From positions 496,001 to 560,000 of the forward strand of contig CANGIY010000001.1 in NCBI GenBank assembly GCA_947454235.1: DNA of 64,000 nucleotides, in the 5' to 3' direction. Under the pieces are notes generated by a model, which was given only the letters and a program-made list of their open reading frames with translations, made no database searches and had not been told where the DNA came from. The position numbers and the translations under genes were made by a program. Origin of the DNA: Chitinophagaceae bacterium. GTDB taxonomy: Bacteria > Bacteroidota > Bacteroidia > Chitinophagales > Chitinophagaceae. Shown here piece by piece: positions 9,644 through 53,281 of the stretch. Every line of letters begins with the position of its first letter. Positions within the stretch are counted from its first letter, which is position 1.

Positions 9644-9667
9644 TGATTGAAAAAATATTATAAACTG

Positions 9668-9717
9668 AAAAAGGCTCCGTTCTCGGAGCCTTTTTCTTTA
9701 CCTTATGAAAATAATAC
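9668..9717 (-). ncRNA. Small RNA cassette A (terminator shared with nbaC)
   Basis: Predicted minus-strand transcript of about 50 bases. The promoter is TTG at 9751-9753, a 19 bp spacer and TACATTTG at 9724-9731 (minus strand). The transcript would then run through a segment conserved with cassettes B and C (element at 9701-9731) and end in the stem GGCTCCG/CGGAGCC with loop AGAA and a T run. The same hairpin (9668-9695, plus-strand arms AAAAAGGCTCCG and CGGAGCCTTTTT) can also terminate nbaC from the other side. The stem differs completely from that of B and C, yet the upstream element is kept. There is no start codon in the conserved part. I did not recognise a known RNA family. Confidence 0.55.
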
Positions 9718-9910
9718 CCACCACAAATGTAGTGAAGCATTTTCGTTTAACAATATTTGTTTTGTAAATAAAGTGAGAAATCTATTACATGCCAAGGGCG
9801 CAGTCAATCATGGTGTTATCTACTTTAGAATGTCTACTATCGGTTGGTAAGCTGCATTTGGTGGTTGAGATTAACCAGGCAACAAAAGGAGATTAACTGG
9901 AAGTTTGGGC

Positions 9911-9969
9911 AAAAAAAAAGACCTCGATAAGAATATCGAAGCCTTATTTACACCTTATGAAAAATATAC
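9911..9969 (-). ncRNA. Small RNA cassette B
   Basis: Predicted minus-strand transcript of about 58 bases. The promoter is TTG at 10003-10005, a 19 bp spacer and TACTTTTG at 9976-9983. The element at 9953-9983 matches cassette A (a few differences) and C (two differences). The intrinsic terminator has stem CTTCGATA/TATCGAGG (plus-strand arms 9922-9929 and 9934-9941), then nine T on the minus strand (9919-9911). No protein start is found in it. The 62 bases at 9912-9973 are identical to 10199-10260 in cassette C. Confidence 0.6.
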
Positions 9970-10198
9970 CCACCACAAAAGTAGAGCGCAAATTTGTTTC
10001 TGCAAAACTTTTTTTGTTCTGGGTGGTTTAATTTTTTACACCATGGTATAGTTAAAATCTATAGTGTATAGTAAATGCTTGAAAATGATGTTTTTAGAAT
10101 TGTGTTGCTCCCTTGAAATAATTGCGACGATTTTGTTGGAAGCTGGGGAAAAGAATCAGTTGCGATCGAATAAGATGGAAGCGTGTTGCGAATTGGGC

Positions 10199-10256
10199 AA
10201 AAAAAAGACCTCGATAAGAATATCGAAGCCTTATTTACACCTTATGAAAAATATAC
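10199..10256 (-). ncRNA. Small RNA cassette C
   Basis: Predicted minus-strand transcript of about 57 bases. The promoter is TTG at 10292-10294, a 21 bp spacer and TACTTTTG at 10263-10270. It ends in the same stem as cassette B (plus-strand arms 10209-10216 and 10221-10228) followed by eight T. It is downstream of, and on the same strand as, the lipoprotein gene that ends at 10408, but it has its own promoter and no gene follows it on this strand. It should therefore be a free-standing RNA and not a leader. Confidence 0.6.
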
Positions 10257-10407
10257 CCACATCAAAAGTACAACATCACAATACCCGTTTCCAAATCATT
10301 TTTGTTAAATGAAAGTTATTGTATTCAAGGGTATTGATATTCAGTCTCATTTGGTTGGAAATTAGTTAAATGGTAGTTAAGCGGCGCGCTTTTGTTATAG
10401 TGAAAAA

Positions 10408-11330: not shown

Positions 11331-12641
11331 TTATCGTTTTTCTACTGATTGAGTTGCGACCACGATATTTCCCGAATGCACTTGTATAAAGTATTGTCCG
11401 GTAGGGAAACTGGTTAAGTCAAGTGTTGTTTTTGGATTCGCTGCTTGTTCCAGAATAGTAATGCCGGTAGTGCTGACAATTTTAATGTTGTCTCCGGCCT
11501 TAAATGCGGGATATTCTATTGTTATTTTATCACTGGTAGGGTTGGGGTACGCAGCTAAAGTTGCCGCATTTTCAAGTATGTGCGTTTCAGTGGTTGAAGG
11601 TGTTATTTTTCTAATCAACGAGTTGCGCGTGTCGGCAACAGCTATATTATTGCTGTTTAAAATTGCTAGTCCGGTAGGTGAATTGATAGTCGCCCACAAA
11701 GCCGGACCGCCATCGCCACTGTAACCCGCTGTGCCAGTACCGGTAACCGTACTTATAATCCCAAACGTATCAACTTTCCGAATCTTATTATTGCCTTGTT
11801 CGCAAATGTAGATATTGCCAATATTGTCAACCTTAACGTCTGTTGGGCTGTTCAAGGTGGTCGCTGTTGCGGCTACTCCATCTACATTCGCACTTGCTGC
11901 AGGGTTGCCTGCTATAGTTGAGATAATGCCACGCGGAGTCACTTTTCTAATAACATTATTGAACTGGTCGGCGATATAAATGTTATTGTTTTGGTCGCTG
12001 CAAATTCCGGCAGGTACATTGAGTGGCGTTGATAACGCAATGCTATCAGTAGCTACATACCCGGTTGAGCCGTTGCCTGCAAATTTTCTTATACGCCCTG
12101 CAGTATCTACCTTGTAAATGTGCTGGTCGTCGGAAGCAATGTAAAGAACTCCATTCTGGTCAAAAGTCACAGCTATCGGTCTGCTGATATTGGCACTGGT
12201 TGCAGGAACGCTGTCAGTGGTAGCAGCGCCGCCCCCTGCTACATCAGTGATGCTCACTCCAGGAACAATTTTTCTCACTTTACGATAACCTGAAACAGCT
12301 ACATAAATGTTGCCTGAATTGACCGCTATGCCTCGAGGCATGAAAAGGTACGCGCTCGTTGGGGTTACACCATTTGTTGTGTCGGTACCTCCCCCGGCAA
12401 TTACATTGATAATGCCTGAAGTGTTGACTCTTCTTATTGTTGAATTGTTGATGTCGGAAATGTAAAGGTTACCTGCAAAGTCGTAAGCAATTGATACAGG
12501 CGCATTAAGTGCTGCCGCTGTAGCCGCTACGCCTTCTCCTGCCGAGCCTACAAGTCTGTTACCTGCGTACCGTGCAATGTGTTGTGCGTGTGCACTTCCA
12601 ACGCAAAGTGCAAGTAAAATAATGGCTAATGTTTTTTTCAT
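11331..12641 (-). CDS. NHL-repeat beta-propeller protein with T9SS sorting domain
   Basis: A 436-residue exported protein. It has a signal peptide (MKKTLAIILLALCVGSAHAQ), then about five to six NHL-type propeller blades. Each has a phrase like NIYISDINNSTIRRV or GVLYIASDDQHIYKV, followed by GIIsTIAGnG. The C-terminal segment from about 355 (AAYPNPTSDKITIEY ... GQYFIQVHSG) is a type A T9SS sorting domain, so the protein should leave through the type IX system and be attached to or released from the cell surface. NHL propellers usually bind proteins or nucleic acids. A related protein is at 61008-62870. Confidence 0.88.
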   Translation of the reverse strand: MKKTLAIILLALCVGSAHAQHIARYAGNRLVGSAGEGVAATAAALNAPVSIAYDFAGNLYISDINNSTIRRVNTSGIINVIAGGGTDTTNGVTPTSAYLFMPRGIAVNSGNIYVAVSGYRKVRKIVPGVSITDVAGGGAATTDSVPATSANISRPIAVTFDQNGVLYIASDDQHIYKVDTAGRIRKFAGNGSTGYVATDSIALSTPLNVPAGICSDQNNNIYIADQFNNVIRKVTPRGIISTIAGNPAASANVDGVAATATTLNSPTDVKVDNIGNIYICEQGNNKIRKVDTFGIISTVTGTGTAGYSGDGGPALWATINSPTGLAILNSNNIAVADTRNSLIRKITPSTTETHILENAATLAAYPNPTSDKITIEYPAFKAGDNIKIVSTTGITILEQAANPKTTLDLTSFPTGQYFIQVHSGNIVVATQSVEKR

Positions 12642-23882: not shown

Positions 23883-26800
23883 ATGAAGAAAATGCTTACA
23901 CTAAGACCAATGAACCTATTCGGAACTAGTGCGTTCCTATTAACCCTGTTACTCCTGTTATCAAGCAAAAACTCATCAGCTCAAGTGTCTTTTACACATG
24001 GGTCGGTTGATTCTGTTACCAACCTGTGTTATACAGGTAGCTCAGATCCGGTGGATTTGAACAATGGTACAGGTCACTCGGTGAACTTGTTACAGGTAAA
24101 TGAACCGACAGCTTCACTGACGCTGACTTGGACTTTGATCTCAGGTCCATCTCATGGTAGTGTGACTGGTTTGCCGTACGTTACGACGTCAAGTGCTGGT
24201 ATTAATACTCCTCCATCTGGCATCGTTTACGATCGTGCTACGCTCTTTTCAGGTTCTGACTCGTTTTTAGTTGCTGTATCTGATGGTTCAACTTCTGATA
24301 CTATTAAAATTATTGCGAATACTTATCCTCTTCCTTCTATCCCAGGTGCAATTACCGGTCCTACAAGCGAATGCCTTTCTACAGGAACTGCTACTTATAG
24401 TAATAGTACTTCGGGTGGTAGTTGGTTTTCACCGAGTACAGCAATTAGTTTGAACAGCACAACAGGTGTTGCAACTTTATTATCTACTGGTACAGCTACA
24501 ATCTTCTACACTGTTGTTAACACTTACAACTGCCGTCAAACAGTTACACTTGAAGACACAGTGCTTACTGTTCCTACGGTTCCTGGCATTACAGGTGCAA
24601 CTTCAGTTTGTGCTGGTTCTAGTACTACATTATCTAATACTACTTCAGGTGGTGTTTGGGTGAGCAGAAACAATGCAATAGCTACAGTTAACTCATCGAC
24701 AGGGATTGTTACAGGTAATAGTGCTGGTTCTACTATTATAGTATATACTGTAACCAACATTTGCGGTACTGCTGCTGATTCAGTGACAATGACTGTAAGC
24801 GGTTCGTACCTCGCAGGTATTCATGGACCCGACAGCGTTTGCGTTGGTTCTACTACAAACTTAACTGACTCTACAACAGGTGGTACCTGGAGTAGTTCAA
24901 ATACTGCTTTAGCTACGGTTAATGCCGCTGGTGTTGTTCGTGGTGTTTCTACTGGTTCAGTGACTATTTTCTACACAGTTACTGACGCTTGCGGAACAAG
25001 AAGCAAAACGTATACAGTACGCGTACAAGGAACGGCAGTTGCTGCCATTAGTGGTCGTGATACTGTTTGTACAGGTGGTACAATTACTTTGGCTGATGCC
25101 ACTGCTGGTGGTACTTGGTCTTCAAGTAACATAACGCTTGCAACTATCGACCCTGCAACGGGTGTTGTAACAGGCGGTAGCTCTACTGGTAGTCTTACTA
25201 TATCTTACTCAGTTGTAAACTCGTGCGGAACGAATGTGGTTACGAAAACACTTGTAGTGTCAGCAGGTACCACTCCTTCTCCGATAACAGGTACTACATC
25301 AGTTTGTACCGGTTCAACAACTTCATTAGCCGACGCTTCTACGTCATCTGGTCTTCCTTACACTTGGTTCAGTGTAAACACATCGAAGGCTAGTGTTGAT
25401 GGTGCTGGTAACGTGACCGTTGTTACAACAACTGCTGATACTGTTACTATCGGATTTTCTTTAACAAGTTCTTGCGGTGTGAACACGGCTACTGTTGTTC
25501 TTAATATATTAACAGTACCAACAACTCCTGCCGCTATCTCTGTTACCTCTCCAATTTGTACAGGTTCATCAGCAACAGCTACCGATGCAACAACTGGTGG
25601 TACTTGGAGCAGTTCTAATACAAGTGTTTTCATTGCTACCGGTTCAGGTACTACTGGTACCGTAACTGGTGTTAGTGCCGGTGCTGCAGTTCTGTCGTAC
25701 ACAGTTTCTAACTTCTGCGGTACTTCAAGTGCAACAACTGCTGTTACAATTCTTGCGCCTCCTGCAACTCCTGCCGCTATTAGTGGAACAACTGTTGTTT
25801 GTGCAGGTTCTTCAACTGCATTAACTGATGCAACAACAGGTGGTAGCTGGAGTTCGTCTAACGGTTCTATAGCTACAGTAAACTCTTCTGGTGTTGTTAC
25901 TGGCGTTGCTGCTGGTTCTTGCAATATCTCTTATACCGTTACAAACTCTTGCGGGTCTTCATCAACAGTTGCTTCTTATACTGTAAACGATGTTCCTGCA
26001 GTTTCTTCAATTACTCCTAGTTCTACAGCAATTTGTACAGGTTCTAGTGTGACTTTAACTGCAAGCCCAGGTACAGGTACTTGGTCAAGTTCTAATACTT
26101 CAGTTGCTTCGGTAGTTGGTGGTGTTGTAACCGGTGCAGCAACTGGTACTGCTACAATCTCTTATGCCGTTACCAATGGTTGCGGTACTACAACTAGAAC
26201 TGCTTCAGTAACTGTTTCAACTACTCCTCCTTCACCTGCTGCAATCGTTGGTGCTGATACAGTTTGTTTGAGTAGCACAATTACACTTACTGATGCTACA
26301 TCAGGTGGTACATGGAGCTCTTCAAACGGTTCTGTTGCTACAGTTAACTCTTCGGGTGTTGTTACAGGTGTTGCTGCTGGTGCTGCAACAATTACCTATT
26401 CTGTAACTTCAAGTTGCGGAACTGCAATTGCGGTACATAATATTACAACTGCAACTGCTCCTTCAACTCCGGCAGTTATTTCTGGTACTTCACCATTGTG
26501 CGTTGGTTCTACAACTACATTTACTGATGCAACTACAGGCGGTGCTTGGACTTCAAGCAACAGTGCTGTAGCAACTGTTGATGCTTCAACTGGTGTTGTA
26601 ACTGGAGTTGCAACGGGTGTTGCTAATATTACTTACACTGTTTCAAATGTTTGCGGTAGCGCAAATAGGAATCGTTCAATAACAATCAATACTGTGCCTG
26701 CACCACCTGCTGCAATTGCTGCATTGGCTTCGGTTTGCGTAAGTAGCACATTTACCGCTACAGATGCAACTGCTGGTGGCTCTTGGAGCGTAACAAACTC

Positions 26801-29800
26801 AAACGCAACTATTAGCGGTACAGGTTTGGTTACAGGCGTTGCAGTAGGTACTGATACTATCGTTTATACAGTTACTAATGCTTGCGGAAGTACTTCTGTA
26901 ACAAGAGCGTTTAACATCACTACTACTCCTACAGTTGCAGCAATTTCCGGAGCTACTACAGTTTGTCGTGGTTCTACTACAACTTATACTGATGCTACAT
27001 CAGGTGGTACTTGGAGTTCAAGCAACAGCGCAATTGCTGCTGTTACTGCTGCAGGTGTTGTATCGGGCGTTGCTACTGGTACTGCGACAATTACTTATAC
27101 AGTAAATAACTCTTGCGGTTCAAGTTTTGTTACTCAAAGCATTACTGTTACTACTATCCCTACAGCTCCTGCTGCCATTTCTGGTTCAACAACAGTTTGT
27201 TTAAGTTCTACTACTACATATTCTGATGCTACTTCTGGTGGTACCTGGAGCAGCGTTTCGCCTTCAGTTGCTACAATCGATGCGAGTGGTAATATCACTC
27301 CGGTAACAACAGGTTCATCAGTTATTTCATACACTGTATCAAATGCTTGCGGTATCAATGCAGCAACTAAAACTATTACAGTAATCACTACTCCTACAGT
27401 TTCAGGTATCACTGGTGCAAGTTCAATGTGTATCAGCAGTACGACTACAATGTCTGATGCGACTGGTGGTGGTACGTGGTCATCAAGCGATGCGTCAGTT
27501 GCGACTATTACTTCTACAGGAGTTGTTACAAGTACTTCGACTGCAGGTTCAGTTGTAATTTCTTACGCTGTAACTAACTCATGTGGTACTACTTATTCTA
27601 CTAGGTCATTGACTGTTACTACAGGTCCAACAGCTCCGGCAGCCATCAGTGGTCCGTCTACAGTTTGCGTTGGATCTACCGTTACTTTGACTGACGCTAC
27701 CTCAGGTGGTTCATGGACTTCGGTATTCCCTACGGCTTCTGTGAGTTCTTCTGGTGTAGTAACTGGTAACTCAGTTGGTACAGCAGTAATTTCTTACACA
27801 GTTACCAATAGCTGTGGTACAAATTCAATCACTGATACCCTTAACGTAATTACAGTTCCTTCGATTCCTTCACCAATCACTGGCGCAGATACTGTGTGTC
27901 TTGGCGGTACTATTACTTTAACTGGTGGTGTTTCTGGTGGTACTTGGGCAAGTAGCTCTGCAACTACTGCTACAGTTGATGGTGCAGGTGTTGTTACAGG
28001 TGCGAATGTTGGTACTGTTCTAATTTCTTACACAGTAAATAATGTGTGTGGTGCTTCATCTCCGGCAACTAAATCTATCCGTGTTATTACGGTTCCTACT
28101 GTTCCGGCAATTGGTGGTTCAACTACTGTTTGTATGGGTTCAACTACTGTATTGACTGATGCAACTCCTGGAGGTGTTTGGTCAAGTGGAAGCCCGGCAG
28201 TTGCTACTATCGATGCATCGACTGGTGTTGCAGGTGGTGTGGCTGTAGGTGTTACAAACATTACTTATACACTTACTAATATGTGTGGTTCTTCTCAGTT
28301 TGTAAGGAGCCTCACAGTTAATACAGTGCCTAATATGCCGGGTCCTATTCGCGGCGCAACGCAAATGTGTCTTGGTGGTAGTACTACTACTTTGGCTGAT
28401 GATACATTGGGCGGTGTATGGAGCAGTTCTAATACTTCAGTTGCTATGATTAGTGCGTCTGGTGTTGTTTCTGCAGTTTCATTAGGTACAACAACAATTT
28501 CTTATACAGTTACAAATGCGTGTGGTTCTACTTCTTATACCATGCCATTCAGCGTAATAACATTACCTACAGTTGCTCCTATTACTGGTGTAACTCAACA
28601 ATGTATTGGTGCTACTTCAACATTGTCTAGTGCAACTCCGGGTGGCTCTTGGTATTCTTCTAACACAGCTATTGCAAATATCTCTAGCTCTGGTGTAGTT
28701 ACAGGTAACACTGCCGGTTCTGTTACAATTCTTTACACAGTTACAAATATGTGTGGTAGTACAACAGTATTTACTTACGATACTGTAAGTACTACATCTG
28801 TTGCATCAGTTACAGGTCCTTCCGACGTTTGTACTGGTTCTACAATTTCACTTGTATGTTCAACAACTGGTGGCTCTTGGAGTTCAAGCAACTTTACTGT
28901 AGCAACTGTAAGTTCTACGGGTACAGTTACAGGTGTTGATACCGGCTTTGCTACTATCACTTATAGTGTTGTGAATGCTTGCGGTACTAACATCTCTACA
29001 AAAACTGTAAGAGTAAGTTCTAACTACGTTGCATCAATTACTGGTTCAAATAATGTTTGCGTTGCTGCTAATGCAACACTTTCAGATTCTACCTTCGGCG
29101 GTACTTGGTTGTCATCTGATCCTACAGTATTGACAATTAACTCTTCAACTGGAGTTATGACTGGTGTAACTGCCGGTTCTGCAATTATACAATACAGCGT
29201 TACTAACGCTTGCGGCGGTCCTTTCAGTCAATTCCTCACTGTAACAGTTAATCCTTTAGCTGATCCGGGTGTAATTACTGGTACATCTACTACAGTTTGT
29301 GAAGGTTCTTCAATTGTTCTGGCTGATACAGCAACTGGTGGTTCTTGGAGCAGCAGTGACAATACTTTGGCTACAGTTACTACAGGTGGCGTAGTTACTG
29401 GTGTTGCTGCTGGTTCAGTGGTAATTTCTTATACAAAAGCGAATATCTGCGGACCTCGTTCAGCGACATATTCAGTAACAGTTAGCCCATTGCCTGTTAC
29501 AGGTGCAATTGTTGGTGCCCCTTCAGTTTGTGAAGGTTCTACAACAACTTTGACAAACCCAACTGCAGTTCCTGCTGGTGCATGGTCAACTGGTGGTGCA
29601 GGTTTTGCAACAATTTCATCGACAGGTGTAGTTACTGGTGTAACTGCGGGTACTGAAACAATATCTTATACTGTTACAAATAGCTGTGGAGTAGCTACAA
29701 TTACTACTTCGATGGTTGTAAATCCACTTCCAGCGGTAGGAACTATTTCTGGTCCTACAAGTGTTTGTGAAGCTTCTACTATTACATTAACTAACTCTGG

Positions 29801-32800
29801 AGCGGCATTTGCAGGTACTTGGGCAAGTGGTAACACTTCAATAGCAACTGTTAATAGTTCGACAGGTGATGTTACTGGTGTTGCAGGCGGTTCAGTTACT
29901 ATTTCTTATGTTGTTACTTCTGATTCAGGTTGTGTTGCATCATCAACTTATGGTGTAACAGTTAATCCTCTTCCACGTACTTCGTCAATTGGTGGTACTC
30001 CGGTCGTTTGTGAACACTCAACTACAACATTGACTAACACTGTTTCAGGTGGTACTTGGATATCAGGTAACCCATTCATTGCGACTGTTGATGCTTCTGG
30101 TACTGTTTACGGTGTTGCATTCGGTACAGTTACTATTACTTACGAATTCACAAACATCTGCGGAACATCGGATTCTACTATTTCTGTTACAGTTAATCCT
30201 GTACCTGATGCAGGTGTAATTTCTGGTTCTACTTCAGTTTGTCAAAGTTCAGTTACAACATTAGTTTCTACGGTTTCTGGTGGTACTTGGAGCAGCAGCG
30301 ATGCAACAGTAGCATCGGTTGACCCATCAACAGGTGATGTTTATGGTGTTGCCGTTGGTACCGTAACTATTACATATTCTTACACTAACTCTTGCGGTAC
30401 TTCTGATTCTACAATCGGAATGGAAGTGCTACCGTTACCTTATGCTGGTGTAATCACTGGTTCAACTTTCGAAATTTGCTCTGGTTCAACGACTACTGTT
30501 GGTTCTTCTGTTGCAGGCGGTTGGTGGTTCTCTAGCGACCCAACTGTTGCTACAATTGATATGTTTACTGGTGATGTAACAGGTGTTGATCCGGGTGGTC
30601 TTTGCTTGTTGATTTATTCATACACTAACAGTTGCGGTACAGATGTTGCTAGCGTATTCTTCACGGTCGATCAGACTCCTTTCGTTATCGGAATTTCTGG
30701 TCCTGATACAGTTTGTGTTGGTAGTACAATCTACCTGAATGATACTACTTTAGGTGCTATGACAAGCTCATGGAGTTCAAGTGATCCTTCTGTTGCTACC
30801 GTTGATGCAGTTACTGGTGCGGTTACTGGTGTTGCCGGTGGTACAGCGAATATTACTTATACACTTACTTCTGCTACTTGTGGTTCGGCTGATACTTTCA
30901 AAACAATCACAGTTATCCCAACTCCGTTTGCTGGTACAATCTCTGGCGCATCTTCTGTTTGCGTTGCATCTAGCACTACAATGACTTCTACAGGTACAGG
31001 CGGAGTTTGGAGCACGAGCGATACTTCAATTGCTACAATTGATTCTGTTACAGGTTCTGTTACAGGTATCACAGCTGGTTTCGTAAATATCACTTATACA
31101 GTTACAAACTATTGCGGTTCTGATATTGCAACACAATTGATGACTGTTAATCCATTGCCTCGCGCTTCTTCTATCTATACAATACCAGCAGGTTTAGACA
31201 GCCTTTGCGTTGGTTCTACTTTGCAATTGTATGATAGCGTTGCGGGTGGTTCTTGGTCAAGTGGAACTCCACTTCTTGCTTATGTTGACGGTTCAGGTTT
31301 GGTAACTGCTTATGTTGCCGGTACTGCAGTTATTTCTTACTCAGTAACGAACGTTTGTGGTACTGCTGATTCTACATTTGGAATTAACATATTGCCTTTA
31401 CCGGTTGCTGGTACTGTTTCCGGTGCTACTAATATTTGTGAAGGTTCAACATCAGCTTATTCAAGTACAGCTACAGGCGGTGTTTGGAGTAGCTCTGATG
31501 TTACTATAGCTACTATTGATGGCGCTACTGGTATTGCAGGTGGTGTATCTACTGGTACAGCTGTTCTTTCTTATTCGGTAACAAATAGTTGTGGTACTGC
31601 GATTGACACAATGGAAATCACGATCGACCCACTTCCAGTTGCCGGTACTATTTCTGGTAGTGACAATATCTGTTCTGGCGCGACAACAACTTATACAAAC
31701 GCTGGTGGTACTGCTGGTGGTACTTGGGTTTCTACTAACACTTCGGTGTTGACTATCGACCCAACAACTGGCGATGCAACTGGCGGTGTAGCTGGTTCTG
31801 CAACTGTTTACTACATTGCTACTACAGTTTGTGGTTCTGATACTGCTTCATTTACAGTTACAGTAAACCCATTGCCTAGTGCTGGTTTCGTAAGCGGTCC
31901 TGATACAGTTTGTTTCGGTGGTAACATTACGCTTACTACTTCTTCTACAATGACAGCGTTTGGTGCATGGGTTTCTGCTGATGCTTCGATTGCTTCAGTA
32001 GGTGCTGCAACTGGTGTTGTTGTCGGTAACTACCCAGGTACTACCGATATCATGTATATCGTAACTACAACTTATTGCGGAGCTGATACTGCGCATCATA
32101 CAGTTTATGTAGATTCTCTCCCTCGCCCTGGTATCATCACTGGTGTTTCTTCAATTTGTGTTGGAGTATCAGAAATCTTTACTGAGTCAGTTCCTGGCGG
32201 TGTATGGAGTATGTATTCTACTGGCGCGGTTGCTACAGTTTCTTCTACTGGTGTGGTAACTGGTGTTGCTTCTGGTGTTGATACAGTATATTATTCAGTT
32301 ACAAACCATTGCGGTACTTCTCGCGCTGCGTTCCCAATCGTTGTTAATCCTTTGCCGTTGGCTGGTGTTATCACTGGTACTACAACGCTTTGTGAAGGTG
32401 CAACTTCTACTCTAACTGATACTGCTTCAGGCGGTACAGGTGCTTGGTCTACTTCAGATGCGGGTATTGCTTATACTACAGGTACTGGCTCTTCAGTTAC
32501 ATTGCATGCTGTTGCTCCTGGTACTGATACAATTTTCTATACTGTTACAAGTTCGTTAGGTTGTTCTTCTTCATTCGCTTACGCGATTGTTACTGTAAAC
32601 ACATTGCCGCATATCGGTGCAATATTTGGTCCATCAGTCGTTTGTGAAGCAAGCACAATCACACTTTCAGATACATTAGCTACACCTCCGGGCGTTTGGT
32701 CATCTTCAGCATTGGGTACTGCTACAGTTGTAGCTAGTACAGGTGTTGTAACAGGTGTTGCTGCTGGTGCTGTTACTATCAGTTATATTGTTTCAACTGC

Positions 32801-35800
32801 TACGTGTGGTTCTGACACAGCAACGTATGCTGTAACAGTTCGTCCTTTACCAATCCCTGGTACAATTTCTGGTACTAGTCCGATTTGCGAAGGCACTACA
32901 ACCGGTTTGACTACCACAGGTGATGCCGGAGGTACTTGGTCAATTGCTCCTGCTGGTTATGCTACAATTAGTGCTACAACAGGTGTTGTAACAGGTGTTG
33001 CTGCTGGTACAGCCATTGCCACATATTCTGTTACAAATAGTTGCGGAACTCTTGAATCATACTTTACTGTTGTTGTTAATGCAGCTCCTAGAGCAGGTAC
33101 AATTACTGGTCGTGACTCAGTTTGTGTGTTGTCAACTAGGTTGTTGTTAGATGCAACAGGTATGTCTGGTGGTACTTGGTTCTCTTCAGCTCCAACTATT
33201 GCTACTGTTACAGGTGGTTTGGTTACAGGTGCTGCTGGTGGTACTACTACTATTAATTACGCTGTATCTACTGCATCTTGCGGTTCTGATACTGCTCACT
33301 TTACAATGCACGTTGTTCCATTGGCTGATACTGGTTTCGGAATCTTTGGTTTGAGCCATATTTGCGAACATTCATATGATACAATGACTATTTCTGCAAC
33401 TGGTGGTTCTTGGACTTCTTCTAACACTGCTGTTGCTGCAGTCAGTGCAGCAGGTGTAGTGAGAGGTGTTTCCGCTGGTTCTGCAATTATCTCTTACACA
33501 GCTACTTCTGCATTTTGTGGTTCACTTTCTGCTACGTTCCGTGTAACAATTGATCCTTTGCCAGTTGTAGGTACTATTTCAGGTCCTCACTCAGTATGTA
33601 TAGGTGATGCTGTTACCCTGACAGAATCTGCAGGTGTACATACTACATTTACTTGGACCGATGGTGGTTCTGGTGTTGATTCAGTAGGCGTTGCTACCGG
33701 TGTTGTTACTGGTCTTGGTGCGGGTACTGATTTAATTACTTTCACAGCAACTACTGTCTGCGGTTCTGCTTCTGCGACTTATGCAATGACTGTTAATCCA
33801 CTTCCTGATGCAGGTATCATCACTGGTCCTACAACAGTTTGTGTTGGCGATCACATGTCATTGACTGAATCAGTTACAGGCGGTACTTGGTCTTCAGGTA
33901 CTACTTCAATTGCTACAGTTAACACAACTACCGGTGAAGTATACGGTGTAAGTGCTGGTACAGTTCATATCTCATACACTGTTCCAAGTTTGTTCGGTTG
34001 TGCTGATGGTGTTACCTGGTATGAAGTTACAGTTAACCCACTCCCTGATGCTGGTGTAATTACAGGAACATTGTCTGTTTGTATTGGTGCTACTACTGCA
34101 CTTACAGATGTAGGTGGTACACCGGGTGGCTCTTGGACAGCTGCAACTAGTACAATCTTAACAGTTGATACAGTAGGTGTTGTAACTGGTGTTTCGGGTG
34201 GTACTGAAATAGTTACTTATACTGCTCATACTGCTACTTGTGGTGATGCATTCACAACAGCTTCGGTTACTGTAATTCCTAACCCTTACGCTGGTGCAAT
34301 TATCTCTTCAGTAACTGAGTTCTGTCAAGGAACTACAATAACTGTTGGTGCTACTGAAACTGGTGGTTCATGGTCAGTTTCTAGTGGCTTGTCAATCACA
34401 GGTGCCGGTACTTCTGCTACTGTAACAGGCGTTGCTGGTGGTGTTCATACTATTTCATATACTATGACAAATGCCTGTGGTTCAGATGTTGCTACATTAG
34501 ATGTAAACGTTGATTCTTTACCTACTGTTGCAGTAATAACTGGTACAACTTCGGTTTGTACTGGTTCTGGTGTAACAACTCTGGTTGATGCTACTACTGG
34601 CGGTGTTTGGTCATCAAGCGATCCAACTATTGCTTCGGTTGACGCTTCTACTGGTTATGTTACCCCTGGAGTTGCTGGAGTTGCTACTATTTACTATTCA
34701 GTAACGAACCACTGCGGTACTACAACAAGAACTGTGACATTTACTGTTAACCAAACTCCAAATGCAGGTACTATTAGTGGTGCTACTTCGTTGTGCCCTA
34801 GTTTGTATTCTACTTATACAATTTCAGGTGCAGTAGGAACAGGTACTTGGAGCCATGTTAATTTTGTAATCGATACATTGAATCCACTTGGTGAGATTTA
34901 TACTTATTCTCCAGGTTTAGACACTATCAGGTACATTGTAACTTCTGCTACTTGCGGTTCAGATACTGCGTTCTATCCAATTGTTATTAACCCAATGCCG
35001 GATGCTGGTGTAATTACTCCTGCTCGCGACACTGTTTGTCAATCTTCTTACGTTGTATTGAACGAGACAGTAACAGGCGGTGTATGGTCTAGCTCTAGCA
35101 CAGCAAACGCTACAGTTAACTCTATTGGTCAGGTATTTGGTGTAAGTGCTGGTAACGTTATTATTACTTACTCAGTAACTAACGCTTGCGGTACTAACTA
35201 CGCATTTGCAAACATCAGAGTTAACAATCTTCCTTATGCTGGTATTATCAGTGGTGCATCTACTCTTTGCGTTGGAACTCCATTGTCATACACAGATACT
35301 GCTTCTTCTGGTACATGGGGATTAACTAACACTACTGTTGCGGTTATTTCAGCTACAGGTACTGTTACAGGCATCTCTGGTCTTACTGGTCCAGTAGTTG
35401 ATACAGTACTTTACACAGTTACAAACTCTTGCGGTACTGATGTTGCAATGAAAGTAATCACAATTAACCCTGTACCTTATGGTGGTCACATCCTTTGCGC
35501 AAGAAACCCAGCTTGGGTATGTGTTGGTGATAGCATCATGGTGAGCAACCCAACAGGTGTTCATCCTGCTACTTGGATTAGTTCTGACGGTACTTATGCT
35601 TCCGTTCGTGATGCTGGTGGTGACAGTGCATTTGTTTTGGGACTTGCTGCAGGTTCAGTTAAAATTATTTACCATAATTTCAACTTCTGTGGTGATGCTT
35701 ATGATACATTGAATGTTGACGTTCGTCCACTTGGTAATTGCTGGCCTTTAGAAGTTGGTACTGTTAAAGCATCTAACGATGAAATTACATTGTATCCTAA

Positions 35801-36002
35801 CCCTGCTGTTTCTATCCTTCACATCGAAGCTGCACAAAAAATAAATGTGACTGTGCTTTCTGCTGACGGTAAAATGGTATACAAGCAAGACAGAGTTTCT
35901 GATATTGATGTAAATGATTTCGCTAACGGTGTTTACATGGTAATGATTTACGATCAGGATGGTGCGTTGCTTAAAGCAGCTAAGTTCATTAAAGCTAACT
36001 AG
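23883..36002 (+). CDS. Giant secreted Ig-like (BIG2-type) repeat protein with T9SS sorting domain
   Basis: A 4039-residue exported protein in one uninterrupted frame of 12.1 kb. A signal peptide of about 34 residues (ending KNSSAQ) is followed by a unique N-terminal region (35-150) with WTLISGPSHGSV, resembling cadherin-like/tandem-95 surface domains. About 48 Ig-like repeats of about 79 residues then run from 152 to about 3950. Each has the pattern G-x-x-x-VC-x-GS, then GGTWSSSN, ATV, GVVTGV-AGT, ITYTVTNSCGT. The two cysteines per repeat (VC and CG) could form an intradomain disulphide. From 3959 comes a type A T9SS sorting domain (LYPNPAVSILHIE ... GVYMVMIYDQDG). Likely role: a long stalk or adhesin at the cell surface. 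The ligand is unknown. A terminator follows, and it appears monocistronic. Confidence 0.93.
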   Translation: MKKMLTLRPMNLFGTSAFLLTLLLLLSSKNSSAQVSFTHGSVDSVTNLCYTGSSDPVDLNNGTGHSVNLLQVNEPTASLTLTWTLISGPSHGSVTGLPYVTTSSAGINTPPSGIVYDRATLFSGSDSFLVAVSDGSTSDTIKIIANTYPLPSIPGAITGPTSECLSTGTATYSNSTSGGSWFSPSTAISLNSTTGVATLLSTGTATIFYTVVNTYNCRQTVTLEDTVLTVPTVPGITGATSVCAGSSTTLSNTTSGGVWVSRNNAIATVNSSTGIVTGNSAGSTIIVYTVTNICGTAADSVTMTVSGSYLAGIHGPDSVCVGSTTNLTDSTTGGTWSSSNTALATVNAAGVVRGVSTGSVTIFYTVTDACGTRSKTYTVRVQGTAVAAISGRDTVCTGGTITLADATAGGTWSSSNITLATIDPATGVVTGGSSTGSLTISYSVVNSCGTNVVTKTLVVSAGTTPSPITGTTSVCTGSTTSLADASTSSGLPYTWFSVNTSKASVDGAGNVTVVTTTADTVTIGFSLTSSCGVNTATVVLNILTVPTTPAAISVTSPICTGSSATATDATTGGTWSSSNTSVFIATGSGTTGTVTGVSAGAAVLSYTVSNFCGTSSATTAVTILAPPATPAAISGTTVVCAGSSTALTDATTGGSWSSSNGSIATVNSSGVVTGVAAGSCNISYTVTNSCGSSSTVASYTVNDVPAVSSITPSSTAICTGSSVTLTASPGTGTWSSSNTSVASVVGGVVTGAATGTATISYAVTNGCGTTTRTASVTVSTTPPSPAAIVGADTVCLSSTITLTDATSGGTWSSSNGSVATVNSSGVVTGVAAGAATITYSVTSSCGTAIAVHNITTATAPSTPAVISGTSPLCVGSTTTFTDATTGGAWTSSNSAVATVDASTGVVTGVATGVANITYTVSNVCGSANRNRSITINTVPAPPAAIAALASVCVSSTFTATDATAGGSWSVTNSNATISGTGLVTGVAVGTDTIVYTVTNACGSTSVTRAFNITTTPTVAAISGATTVCRGSTTTYTDATSGGTWSSSNSAIAAVTAAGVVSGVATGTATITYTVNNSCGSSFVTQSITVTTIPTAPAAISGSTTVCLSSTTTYSDATSGGTWSSVSPSVATIDASGNITPVTTGSSVISYTVSNACGINAATKTITVITTPTVSGITGASSMCISSTTTMSDATGGGTWSSSDASVATITSTGVVTSTSTAGSVVISYAVTNSCGTTYSTRSLTVTTGPTAPAAISGPSTVCVGSTVTLTDATSGGSWTSVFPTASVSSSGVVTGNSVGTAVISYTVTNSCGTNSITDTLNVITVPSIPSPITGADTVCLGGTITLTGGVSGGTWASSSATTATVDGAGVVTGANVGTVLISYTVNNVCGASSPATKSIRVITVPTVPAIGGSTTVCMGSTTVLTDATPGGVWSSGSPAVATIDASTGVAGGVAVGVTNITYTLTNMCGSSQFVRSLTVNTVPNMPGPIRGATQMCLGGSTTTLADDTLGGVWSSSNTSVAMISASGVVSAVSLGTTTISYTVTNACGSTSYTMPFSVITLPTVAPITGVTQQCIGATSTLSSATPGGSWYSSNTAIANISSSGVVTGNTAGSVTILYTVTNMCGSTTVFTYDTVSTTSVASVTGPSDVCTGSTISLVCSTTGGSWSSSNFTVATVSSTGTVTGVDTGFATITYSVVNACGTNISTKTVRVSSNYVASITGSNNVCVAANATLSDSTFGGTWLSSDPTVLTINSSTGVMTGVTAGSAIIQYSVTNACGGPFSQFLTVTVNPLADPGVITGTSTTVCEGSSIVLADTATGGSWSSSDNTLATVTTGGVVTGVAAGSVVISYTKANICGPRSATYSVTVSPLPVTGAIVGAPSVCEGSTTTLTNPTAVPAGAWSTGGAGFATISSTGVVTGVTAGTETISYTVTNSCGVATITTSMVVNPLPAVGTISGPTSVCEASTITLTNSGAAFAGTWASGNTSIATVNSSTGDVTGVAGGSVTISYVVTSDSGCVASSTYGVTVNPLPRTSSIGGTPVVCEHSTTTLTNTVSGGTWISGNPFIATVDASGTVYGVAFGTVTITYEFTNICGTSDSTISVTVNPVPDAGVISGSTSVCQSSVTTLVSTVSGGTWSSSDATVASVDPSTGDVYGVAVGTVTITYSYTNSCGTSDSTIGMEVLPLPYAGVITGSTFEICSGSTTTVGSSVAGGWWFSSDPTVATIDMFTGDVTGVDPGGLCLLIYSYTNSCGTDVASVFFTVDQTPFVIGISGPDTVCVGSTIYLNDTTLGAMTSSWSSSDPSVATVDAVTGAVTGVAGGTANITYTLTSATCGSADTFKTITVIPTPFAGTISGASSVCVASSTTMTSTGTGGVWSTSDTSIATIDSVTGSVTGITAGFVNITYTVTNYCGSDIATQLMTVNPLPRASSIYTIPAGLDSLCVGSTLQLYDSVAGGSWSSGTPLLAYVDGSGLVTAYVAGTAVISYSVTNVCGTADSTFGINILPLPVAGTVSGATNICEGSTSAYSSTATGGVWSSSDVTIATIDGATGIAGGVSTGTAVLSYSVTNSCGTAIDTMEITIDPLPVAGTISGSDNICSGATTTYTNAGGTAGGTWVSTNTSVLTIDPTTGDATGGVAGSATVYYIATTVCGSDTASFTVTVNPLPSAGFVSGPDTVCFGGNITLTTSSTMTAFGAWVSADASIASVGAATGVVVGNYPGTTDIMYIVTTTYCGADTAHHTVYVDSLPRPGIITGVSSICVGVSEIFTESVPGGVWSMYSTGAVATVSSTGVVTGVASGVDTVYYSVTNHCGTSRAAFPIVVNPLPLAGVITGTTTLCEGATSTLTDTASGGTGAWSTSDAGIAYTTGTGSSVTLHAVAPGTDTIFYTVTSSLGCSSSFAYAIVTVNTLPHIGAIFGPSVVCEASTITLSDTLATPPGVWSSSALGTATVVASTGVVTGVAAGAVTISYIVSTATCGSDTATYAVTVRPLPIPGTISGTSPICEGTTTGLTTTGDAGGTWSIAPAGYATISATTGVVTGVAAGTAIATYSVTNSCGTLESYFTVVVNAAPRAGTITGRDSVCVLSTRLLLDATGMSGGTWFSSAPTIATVTGGLVTGAAGGTTTINYAVSTASCGSDTAHFTMHVVPLADTGFGIFGLSHICEHSYDTMTISATGGSWTSSNTAVAAVSAAGVVRGVSAGSAIISYTATSAFCGSLSATFRVTIDPLPVVGTISGPHSVCIGDAVTLTESAGVHTTFTWTDGGSGVDSVGVATGVVTGLGAGTDLITFTATTVCGSASATYAMTVNPLPDAGIITGPTTVCVGDHMSLTESVTGGTWSSGTTSIATVNTTTGEVYGVSAGTVHISYTVPSLFGCADGVTWYEVTVNPLPDAGVITGTLSVCIGATTALTDVGGTPGGSWTAATSTILTVDTVGVVTGVSGGTEIVTYTAHTATCGDAFTTASVTVIPNPYAGAIISSVTEFCQGTTITVGATETGGSWSVSSGLSITGAGTSATVTGVAGGVHTISYTMTNACGSDVATLDVNVDSLPTVAVITGTTSVCTGSGVTTLVDATTGGVWSSSDPTIASVDASTGYVTPGVAGVATIYYSVTNHCGTTTRTVTFTVNQTPNAGTISGATSLCPSLYSTYTISGAVGTGTWSHVNFVIDTLNPLGEIYTYSPGLDTIRYIVTSATCGSDTAFYPIVINPMPDAGVITPARDTVCQSSYVVLNETVTGGVWSSSSTANATVNSIGQVFGVSAGNVIITYSVTNACGTNYAFANIRVNNLPYAGIISGASTLCVGTPLSYTDTASSGTWGLTNTTVAVISATGTVTGISGLTGPVVDTVLYTVTNSCGTDVAMKVITINPVPYGGHILCARNPAWVCVGDSIMVSNPTGVHPATWISSDGTYASVRDAGGDSAFVLGLAAGSVKIIYHNFNFCGDAYDTLNVDVRPLGNCWPLEVGTVKASNDEITLYPNPAVSILHIEAAQKINVTVLSADGKMVYKQDRVSDIDVNDFANGVYMVMIYDQDGALLKAAKFIKAN
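24340..35740 (+). repeat. Tandem array of about 48 Ig-like repeat units (about 238 bp each)
   Basis: Counted by eye from the VC-x-GS and NSCGT landmarks. Units before about 29250 (1-21) are joined by linkers such as TVPTVPGITG or TTPSPITG. From unit 22 on the linker is mostly NPLPDAGVITG-like and the cysteine is often followed by E (VCEGS). Neighbouring units are strongly alike but not identical at DNA level. Confidence 0.85.
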
Positions 36003-52397: not shown

Positions 52398-52421
52398 TTG
52401 TAATAGGGTATTAGATATAAA

Positions 52422-52457
52422 AATAAGGAGCGCAATTTTGATGTTGCGCTCCTTATT
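52422..52457. terminator. Convergent terminator between ALDH7 and the TPR gene
   Basis: Perfect 14 bp stem AATAAGGAGCGCAA (52422-52435) / TTGCGCTCCTTATT (52444-52457), which touches the stop of the minus-strand TPR gene. It can serve both transcripts. Confidence 0.85.
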
Positions 52458-53281
52458 TATTTGCAGTACTCTTTGATGTATTGTTCGGCCATCGGGAGCC
52501 TCATGGTTTTGGCAATTGCCAAATCGTGGCAGGCATCATTGTCCTTTATTTTATGTTTGAACATAGCTCTGTAAATGTAACCTTGACCCCACATCGGATC
52601 TGATTTAAGGGCTCTTGATATATCTTTAATAGCCAGCGAGTCTTTGTTGGCAACATCGTACGCAACACTTCTGTTGGCATACCCGGCAATAGCGTTGGAG
52701 TCTAATTTAATTTGTTGAGTGAAATCGGCAATCGCTCCATCAACATCGTTTAATTTCATTTTTGCAGTACCGCGCATTTCATAAAGCATAACGTAAGTAG
52801 GCTTTATGTTGATAGCTGCATCGAGGTCGGCTTTAGCATCTACATAGTTGTTGGTTCCCAATTTTGCCCTCGATCTGGAAAGCAGTGCCATGAAAAAGTC
52901 TGGTTTAAAATGAATGGCTTTATCAATGTCTTTTTGGAATTCGGGTTTCAGTCCAATTGCTTGTTCAACATTGGCACGACCAAAGTAGCCCAAAGCAAAA
53001 GTAGAGTCGGCCTCAAGAAGTGCCTTGTAATATTCCAGCGACTTACCTAGTTCTCCCTGAAGCTCAAAAACGGTAGCGAGCGCATATAATGCTCTCGTGT
53101 TATTCTTATTGCTTTCAATAGCTTTTTCGTATTCCTTTTGAGCATTTGCAAAGTCGCTTTTATAAATAAAGTCGTTTCCTTTTTGAAAGTGTTCATCTGA
53201 TGAGTCTTTCTTGCCGCCTGAACACGAAGAAAGTACTGAAATGACTCCTGCTACCAATGCGTAATATGCGAATCGTTTCAT
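52457..53281 (-). CDS. TPR-repeat lipoprotein
   Basis: A 274-residue lipoprotein with leader MKRFAYYALVAGVISVLSSC (lipobox LSSC). The mature part is a chain of about six tetratricopeptide repeats, such as HFQKGNDFIYKSDFANAQKEYEKAIE, ALYALATVFELQGELGKSLEYYKAL and GYANRSVAYDVANKDSLAIKDISRAL. TPR solenoids bind other proteins. The partner is not indicated by the neighbours. Confidence 0.9.
   Translation of the reverse strand: MKRFAYYALVAGVISVLSSCSGGKKDSSDEHFQKGNDFIYKSDFANAQKEYEKAIESNKNNTRALYALATVFELQGELGKSLEYYKALLEADSTFALGYFGRANVEQAIGLKPEFQKDIDKAIHFKPDFFMALLSRSRAKLGTNNYVDAKADLDAAINIKPTYVMLYEMRGTAKMKLNDVDGAIADFTQQIKLDSNAIAGYANRSVAYDVANKDSLAIKDISRALKSDPMWGQGYIYRAMFKHKIKDNDACHDLAIAKTMRLPMAEQYIKEYCK

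Follow-up and report, generated by a model that had tools for sequence, protein, structure and literature searches.

A multicopy family of predicted small RNAs with a near-invariant 5' seed in Chitinophagaceae

In this study, we analyzed a 64-kb stretch of bacterial DNA (hereafter the window) from a genome that we infer to belong to the genus of Flavipsychrobacter, Chitinophagaceae. On the minus strand at 9667-10294 lie three units with the same order of parts: a TTG, a gap of 19-21 bp, TAnnTTTG, 4 nt, a segment starting GGGUAU and an intrinsic terminator. The array is placed between a 3-hydroxyanthranilate dioxygenase gene (PF06052), into whose 3' end it points, and a gene without a Pfam match. 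Close to it, at 11331-12641 on the minus strand, is a gene whose NHL-repeat product carries a type IX secretion C-terminal tail (PF18962). Elsewhere in the window, one reading frame extends over about 12.1 kb (23883-36002, plus strand) from a signal peptide-like start, MKKMLTLRPMNLFGTSAFLLTLLLLLSSKNSSAQ, and its product is presumably a very large exported protein. No tRNA or tmRNA was found in the 64 kb. The features of the three units are as follows; the bit scores refer to covariance model R1, in whose construction copies A, B and C were themselves used as rows.

9667..9719, minus strand: copy A, predicted small RNA of about 53 nt with seed GGGUAUUAUUUUCAUAAGGU and stem GGCUCCG/CGGAGCC, unlike the other copies (R1 60.2 bits, E 4.9e-12)
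9724..9731, minus strand: copy A, promoter -7 element TACATTTG
9751..9753, minus strand: copy A, promoter -33 TTG
9911..9971, minus strand: copy B, predicted small RNA of about 61 nt with seed GGGUAUAUUUUUCAUAAGGUGUAA and terminator (R1 70.8 bits, E 1.6e-14)
9957..9964, minus strand: copy B, UUUUUCAU core, complementary to AUGAAAAA
9976..9983, minus strand: copy B, promoter -7 element TACTTTTG
10003..10005, minus strand: copy B, promoter -33 TTG
10199..10258, minus strand: copy C, predicted small RNA of about 60 nt, the same as B from nt 1 into the U tract (R1 69.2 bits, E 3.8e-14)
10263..10270, minus strand: copy C, promoter -7 element TACTTTTG
10292..10294, minus strand: copy C, promoter -33 TTG

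A first-pass annotation had described these units as a probable family of paralogous small RNAs, and its description of the sequence proved accurate. The repeated 31-base element is present at 9701-9731, 9953-9983 and 10240-10270; the distance from TTG to TAnnTTTG, given there as 19-21 bp, is 19, 19 and 21 bases; and B and C are identical over exactly 62 bases (9912-9973 and 10199-10260), with a mismatch at the next base on both sides. The sequence TTTTCATAAGG is confined to the three units, its three occurrences in the 64-kb window comparing with 0.05 expected and with three or more in none of 100 shuffles. TAnnTTTG is a promoter motif. The 4 nt that separate it from GGG are variable, and the near-invariant transcribed half starts at GGG (9719 in A, 9971 in B and 10258 in C), the conserved 5' RNA segment being GGGUAUAUUUUUCAUAAGGUGUAA in both B and C. 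A fourth, lone copy was found elsewhere in the same genome (G000:C1:203909), 302 kb from the window array, with 52 nt of B unchanged. The terminator that the annotation had placed after each copy was recovered as a clear hairpin in all of them, with z-scores of -5.2 to -5.7 for the predicted whole-RNA folds of the three window copies and the fourth copy. It had also noted that copy A keeps the element with an entirely different stem, which was confirmed. A weak seed hairpin is possible in B, C and the fourth copy, and the minimum free energy fold of copy A has an open 5' end.

The alignment comprised 34 copies from 11 genomes, and column statistics were calculated on 33 of them, the 34th being cut by a contig end. 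First, the 5' part of the transcript was strongly conserved: columns +1 to +6, +9 to +12 and +17 reached 2.0 bits, and the whole of +1 to +18 had at least 1.7 bits. Upstream, full conservation was limited to columns of the -7 element, and most columns outside the promoter elements were below 0.8 bits. The exact arrangement TAnnTTTG-N4-GGG was present in 19 of the 33 copies and TAnnTTT in 4 more, with neither in the remaining 10; a TTG was found anywhere within the 16-nt upstream window in 30 of 33, which is a weak test in AT-rich DNA. Second, the 14-bp terminator stem showed changes on both sides at 10 of its 14 pairs, a number reached over the whole structure by none of 500 shuffles and compared with at most 6 when partners were slid, even if related sequences can exceed shuffles without structure. 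The stem was very different in window copy A and in locus L111. On the other hand, a possible 5' helix of seven pairs suggested by RNA folding had no pair changed on both sides, and its 3' arm is partly missing in L076 and L111, which nevertheless retain the 5' strand. Thus, it is the 5' sequence, not the helix, that is conserved. These results bear out the earlier proposal that a 5' segment of 20-25 nt is under selection and the terminator is freely chosen, since nt 1-18 are near-invariant and the stem covaries or is replaced. Finally, no reading frame was shared over the 34 copies (longest open reading frames of 0-47 amino acids in sense and 0-55 in antisense), which speaks against a small protein gene. 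We conclude that the units form a small RNA family in which selection acts on the 5' seed.

The family is not restricted to this locus. By blastn, all 10 other genomes of the genus contain the unit, with best E values between 4.0e-18 and 7.9e-13, and none of 48 genomes outside it has a match at E<=1e-3. Tandem arrays contain two to six copies, six being in tandem on one contig of G003; the total is four in the genome of the window (G000) and five in G009, where they are dispersed as separate loci. Model R1, built from the 34 copies, was then run on 294 genomes drawn from the family Chitinophagaceae. At E<=1e-6 it detected, besides five genus members in this draw, 10 genomes of six other genera, so that conservation extends well beyond the locus. 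A lack of conservation elsewhere and a conserved protein across the element are two outcomes that the annotation had named as speaking against its proposal, and neither was observed. Read by eye, the best locus in each of the 10 genomes retains UUUUCAUAAGGUGUAA, and 9 of the 10 have an exact TAnnTTTG upstream, a motif absent from R1. At E<=0.05, matches were found in 191 of the 294 genomes. However, among 13 weaker loci (L178-L190), the seed was seen, as TTTTCATAAGGTGTAA, in L180 (E 1.5e-5), and the other matches seem to be driven by the terminator; therefore, only matches at E<=1e-6 were counted. When 395 genomes drawn across the phylum were scanned, seven had matches at E<=1e-4. Two of these, one being the genome of the window itself, belong to Chitinophagaceae; among the other five, UUUUUCAU stands at the 5' end in L334 alone, the remaining matches being terminator-like by eye, and no clear family member was found outside Chitinophagaceae in this sample. 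L334 (about position 1500, minus strand, genome G398, of another family of the class) is in itself a candidate small RNA, GGGUAUGUUUUUCAUAGGUAGAUGUAGGGUC..., with its own terminator and UUUUUCAU near the 5' end. In the window, a further R1 match at 52406-52465 on the plus strand (GGGTATTAGATATAAAAATAAGGAGCGC...GCGCTCCTTATTTATTTG, 26.3 bits) is without UUUUUCAU and is probably an ordinary terminator.

Comparison with Rfam 15 gave no match at gathering score in the 64-kb window. For FopS (RF04319), copy A scored 24.3 bits against a gathering score of 56, B and C had no FopS match among the matches listed, and none of the 150 candidates scored out of 561 first-look candidates in the genome of the window was above the cut-off. 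For GibS (RF04182), copy A scored 15.1 bits against 115, and the best score of the model, 35.3 bits, was in a relative of another genus. Membership in either family was thus rejected, and because the Rfam thresholds of both were not reached, we classed the window family as a new family of the FopS/GibS kind, its nearest known relatives in kind being these two. According to the FopS paper, the 14 paralogues of FopS are about 65-70 nt long, have canonical promoters and pair through a 5' seed at susC start codons; they are antagonized by the RRM protein RbpB, for which binding to the 5' part of FopS is reported (PMC11697453). GibS is described as acting at start codons through an extended 5' seed (PMC7366714). 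Bacteroidota are reported to be without classical RNA chaperones and Shine-Dalgarno sequences (PMC11697453, PMC7366714, and PMC9723704 on Flavobacterium psychrophilum). In the present genus, all 11 genomes encode one RRM_1 protein (RbpB-like) each.

The window family shares with FopS a set of multicopy paralogues (4 copies in G000 and 6 in tandem in G003), a canonical promoter of the sigma-ABfr type, a short RNA consisting of a 5' seed and a terminator, an RRM protein gene in the genome, and UUUUUCAU near the 5' end. It differs in that UUUUUCAU is followed by AAGGUGUAA and not by GGUAUUAGAUUUAAGG, in its largely tandem organization and occurrence in Chitinophagaceae, and in that its targets are candidates only. 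Of the FopS R1' seed GUGUUUUUCAUGGUAUUAGAUUUAAGG, only UUUUUCAU is common, with CAU at the corresponding position; a GGUAUUA is also present in copy A, but in a different register, which is the one used in the cmscan alignment. With GibS, whose extended seed is reported to act at start codons, the family shares the 5' GUGUUUUUCAUA, and differs from its 142-position model with two seeds (called R1 and R2 in the papers). The UUUUUCAU core lies near the 5' end of the window family as it does in the Rfam consensus of GibS, which begins GUGUUUUUCAUAGUAUUAGAU, and of FopS, which begins GUGUUUUUCAUGGUAUUAGAU. Because TTTTTCAT starts at 8.6e-5 of window positions, we estimate at about 0.001 the probability of meeting it by chance among the dozen 5'-most positions of a small RNA that had been noticed independently. 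No Chitinophagaceae small RNA family of such a kind was among the matches listed in a literature search of open, published papers, and a search with the letters of the seed returned one unrelated human paper. The small RNA family is real and, in the literature searched and in Rfam, apparently undescribed.

A second family was met through the FopS model. Its two best matches in the genome of the window, out of 8, were weak, with 25.5 bits (E 0.2) and 24.1 bits (E 0.4) compared with up to about 18 for terminator-only matches, and correspond to a tandem pair at G000:C5:44340-44510 (L078:8340-8510). This family 2 has the seed UUUU(U)CAU[G/A]GUGAUAGGGUUUAUA, a 5' end UUUUCAU[G/A]GUGAUAGGGUUUAUAGGGG and a terminator that covaries (alignment A2, model R2). 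The complement of its seed has an exact match in 9 of the 11 genus genomes, with close pairs in 7 of 11, and R2 had matches at E<=1e-10 in 17 further genera of Chitinophagaceae, as counted from the model matches. In common with the window family are a 5' UUUUCAU[G/A]GUGAUAG seed, a terminator, tandem pairs, the genus and, before some copies, a canonical promoter; in contrast, family 2 has other flanks, is wider in Chitinophagaceae and is closer to FopS in sequence, to which it aligns via UUUUCAU[G/A]GU..UAG below the Rfam threshold. In the window, R2 found no seed match to the first family and only a terminator-like one on the plus strand (9666-9706, E 0.045). Family 2 supports a wider class with a common core; since it was found through FopS, it is not an independent case. 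In the pairs L135, L137, L139, L150 and L152, the AUGG-type copies are preceded by a recurring ATAAAGAAG-like stretch and are without TAnnTTTG, which is present before some AUAG-type copies, and this suggests two promoter types. Two promoter types, GibS versus FopS, are also reported in the FopS paper (PMC11697453).

The complement of UUUUUCAU is AUGAAAAA, a start codon followed by a Lys codon, and candidate sites at start codons were examined with a crude script classifier for exported-type genes. In the genome of the window, the complement of the downstream side of the seed (19-mer, at most 3 mismatches) occurred at 8 sites, which were the 4 small RNA genes and 4 others. One of these four others, at G000:C15:82737, is the start of a lipoprotein gene and offers 15 contiguous pairs with the seed. 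In the 11 genomes, the 15-mer CTTATGAAAAATATA with at most 1 mismatch gave 67 sites, 33 in small RNA copies and 34 elsewhere; the reversed control, a pattern without ATGAAAAA, gave 8. Exported-type gene starts accounted for 14 of the 29 such non-sRNA sites examined (the other 5 are in G004 (2), G005 (2) and G010 (1)). Further candidates included signal-peptide proteins, some of which, in relatives, are NHL-like by eye; the gene at 11331-12641 near the window array likewise encodes an NHL-repeat protein. Among sites with exact ATGAAAAA, 13 of 23 seed-complement sites opened exported-type genes as compared with 20 of 87 control sites, taken from 464 kb of G000 (Fisher p 0.003; 11 of 20 with three orthologue pairs counted once, p 0.006), a comparison biased by a single control genome set against many target genomes, by an Ile codon 4 that favors exported proteins and by the crude classifier.

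On the upstream side, the complement with at most 3 mismatches had 361 sites, about 30 small RNA copies included, versus 294 for the reversed pattern, and no clear excess was observed; 20 sites were chosen among the matches listed, mainly with an intact ATG, and 7 of the 18 viewed opened long exported-type genes by eye. At 351 gene starts of G000, called crudely, 3 duplexes of -18 kcal/mol or stronger were obtained with the real seed, one of them in a stretch selected because it contained a match, versus 0.97 +/- 1.0 for flank-shuffled seeds, which keep UUUUUCAU; the corresponding numbers were 5 versus 4.2 +/- 2.5 at -16 kcal/mol and 0 versus 0.2 at -20 kcal/mol. The preference for exported-type starts was not larger with the real seed (mean -9.4 versus -8.9 kcal/mol) than with shuffled flanks (-9.3 versus -8.2). 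DUF5723 (PF18990) was rejected as a genus-wide target: with script-chosen starts, pairing was strong in 3 of 11 genomes only (-22.8 or -22.9 in G004, G005 and G010), and -18.3 or weaker for 27 other homologues.

The units are probably independent genes for trans-acting small RNAs that repress through a 5' seed at start codons, with several copies setting the dosage. Each would be a separate gene for an RNA of about 53-61 nt, on which RNA polymerase with the Bacteroidota primary sigma factor would initiate at or near GGG and the Rho-independent terminator would end the transcript. GGGUAUAUUUUUCAUAAGGUGUAA would serve as an extended seed in which UUUUUCAU pairs with AUGAAAAA, common in mRNAs of exported proteins; the flanks would pair with the 5' UTR and early codons, so that ribosome entry would be blocked on mRNAs without Shine-Dalgarno sequences, possibly with help from the RRM protein, and multiple copies would provide a higher dose. 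Because the target tests are split for and against, this mechanism is the best reading rather than a demonstrated one.

It is rather improbable that the small RNAs are real but use their conserved 5' segment to bind a protein, such as an RRM protein or RNA polymerase, or to sponge other small RNAs or mRNAs, with no repression at start codons. The conservation of +1 to +18 is beyond what pairing with a few targets seems to need, the only candidate followed genus-wide is unconserved and the flanks show no clear target enrichment; the reported binding of RbpB to the 5' part of FopS (PMC11697453), together with the RRM protein in every genus genome, also fits this view. However, two small RNAs reported to act at start codons likewise have UUUUUCAU near the 5' end, and the candidate sites favor exported-gene starts, with the biased control noted above.

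A role as transcription attenuators or leaders of neighboring genes appears highly improbable. Among the 10 relatives, eight (G003 to G010) do have a copy or array upstream of the same co-directional gene, which we take to encode a CCA tRNA nucleotidyltransferase; in G001 and G002, the contig ends at this neighborhood. However, the window units face plus-strand genes and, as first noted, no minus-strand gene follows; different neighbors, or none in the available sequence, are found beside the fourth copy and beside four of the five copies in G009; and every unit has its own promoter and terminator. Since the flanking genes differ between G000 and its relatives, a gene leader is unlikely, and this reading is largely refuted. 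That the units are a repeated DNA element, mobile or bound by a protein, that mimics a transcription unit is scarcely credible despite their repetition and partial dispersal (five separate loci in G009), given that conservation lies in the promoter elements and the transcript, not in the promoter spacer or the stretches between units, that the changes in the terminator stem are compensatory, and that a search of 50,697 phage and 72,556 plasmid records with copy B and its promoter gave no match. The exact seed pattern of either small RNA family was also absent from viral contigs, and spread via phage or plasmid was rejected on these searches.

The multicopy, start-codon-targeting small RNAs of Bacteroidota in the cited papers come from gut Bacteroides (PMC11697453, PMC7366714). 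A similarly built family in environmental Chitinophagaceae, together with a second family nearer to FopS, would suggest a mode of control general to the phylum, and the UUUUUCAU core together with its flanks would be a simple, testable code. It is a tentative idea, which we hold with less than even confidence, that Bacteroidota share an address code for small RNAs, in which a 5' UUUUUCAU reads the AUGAAAAA starts typical of exported proteins and flanks specific to each family choose the 5' UTR; GibS, FopS, the window family and family 2 might then be branches of one phylum-wide class, expanded as multicopy or tandem arrays that control surface display.
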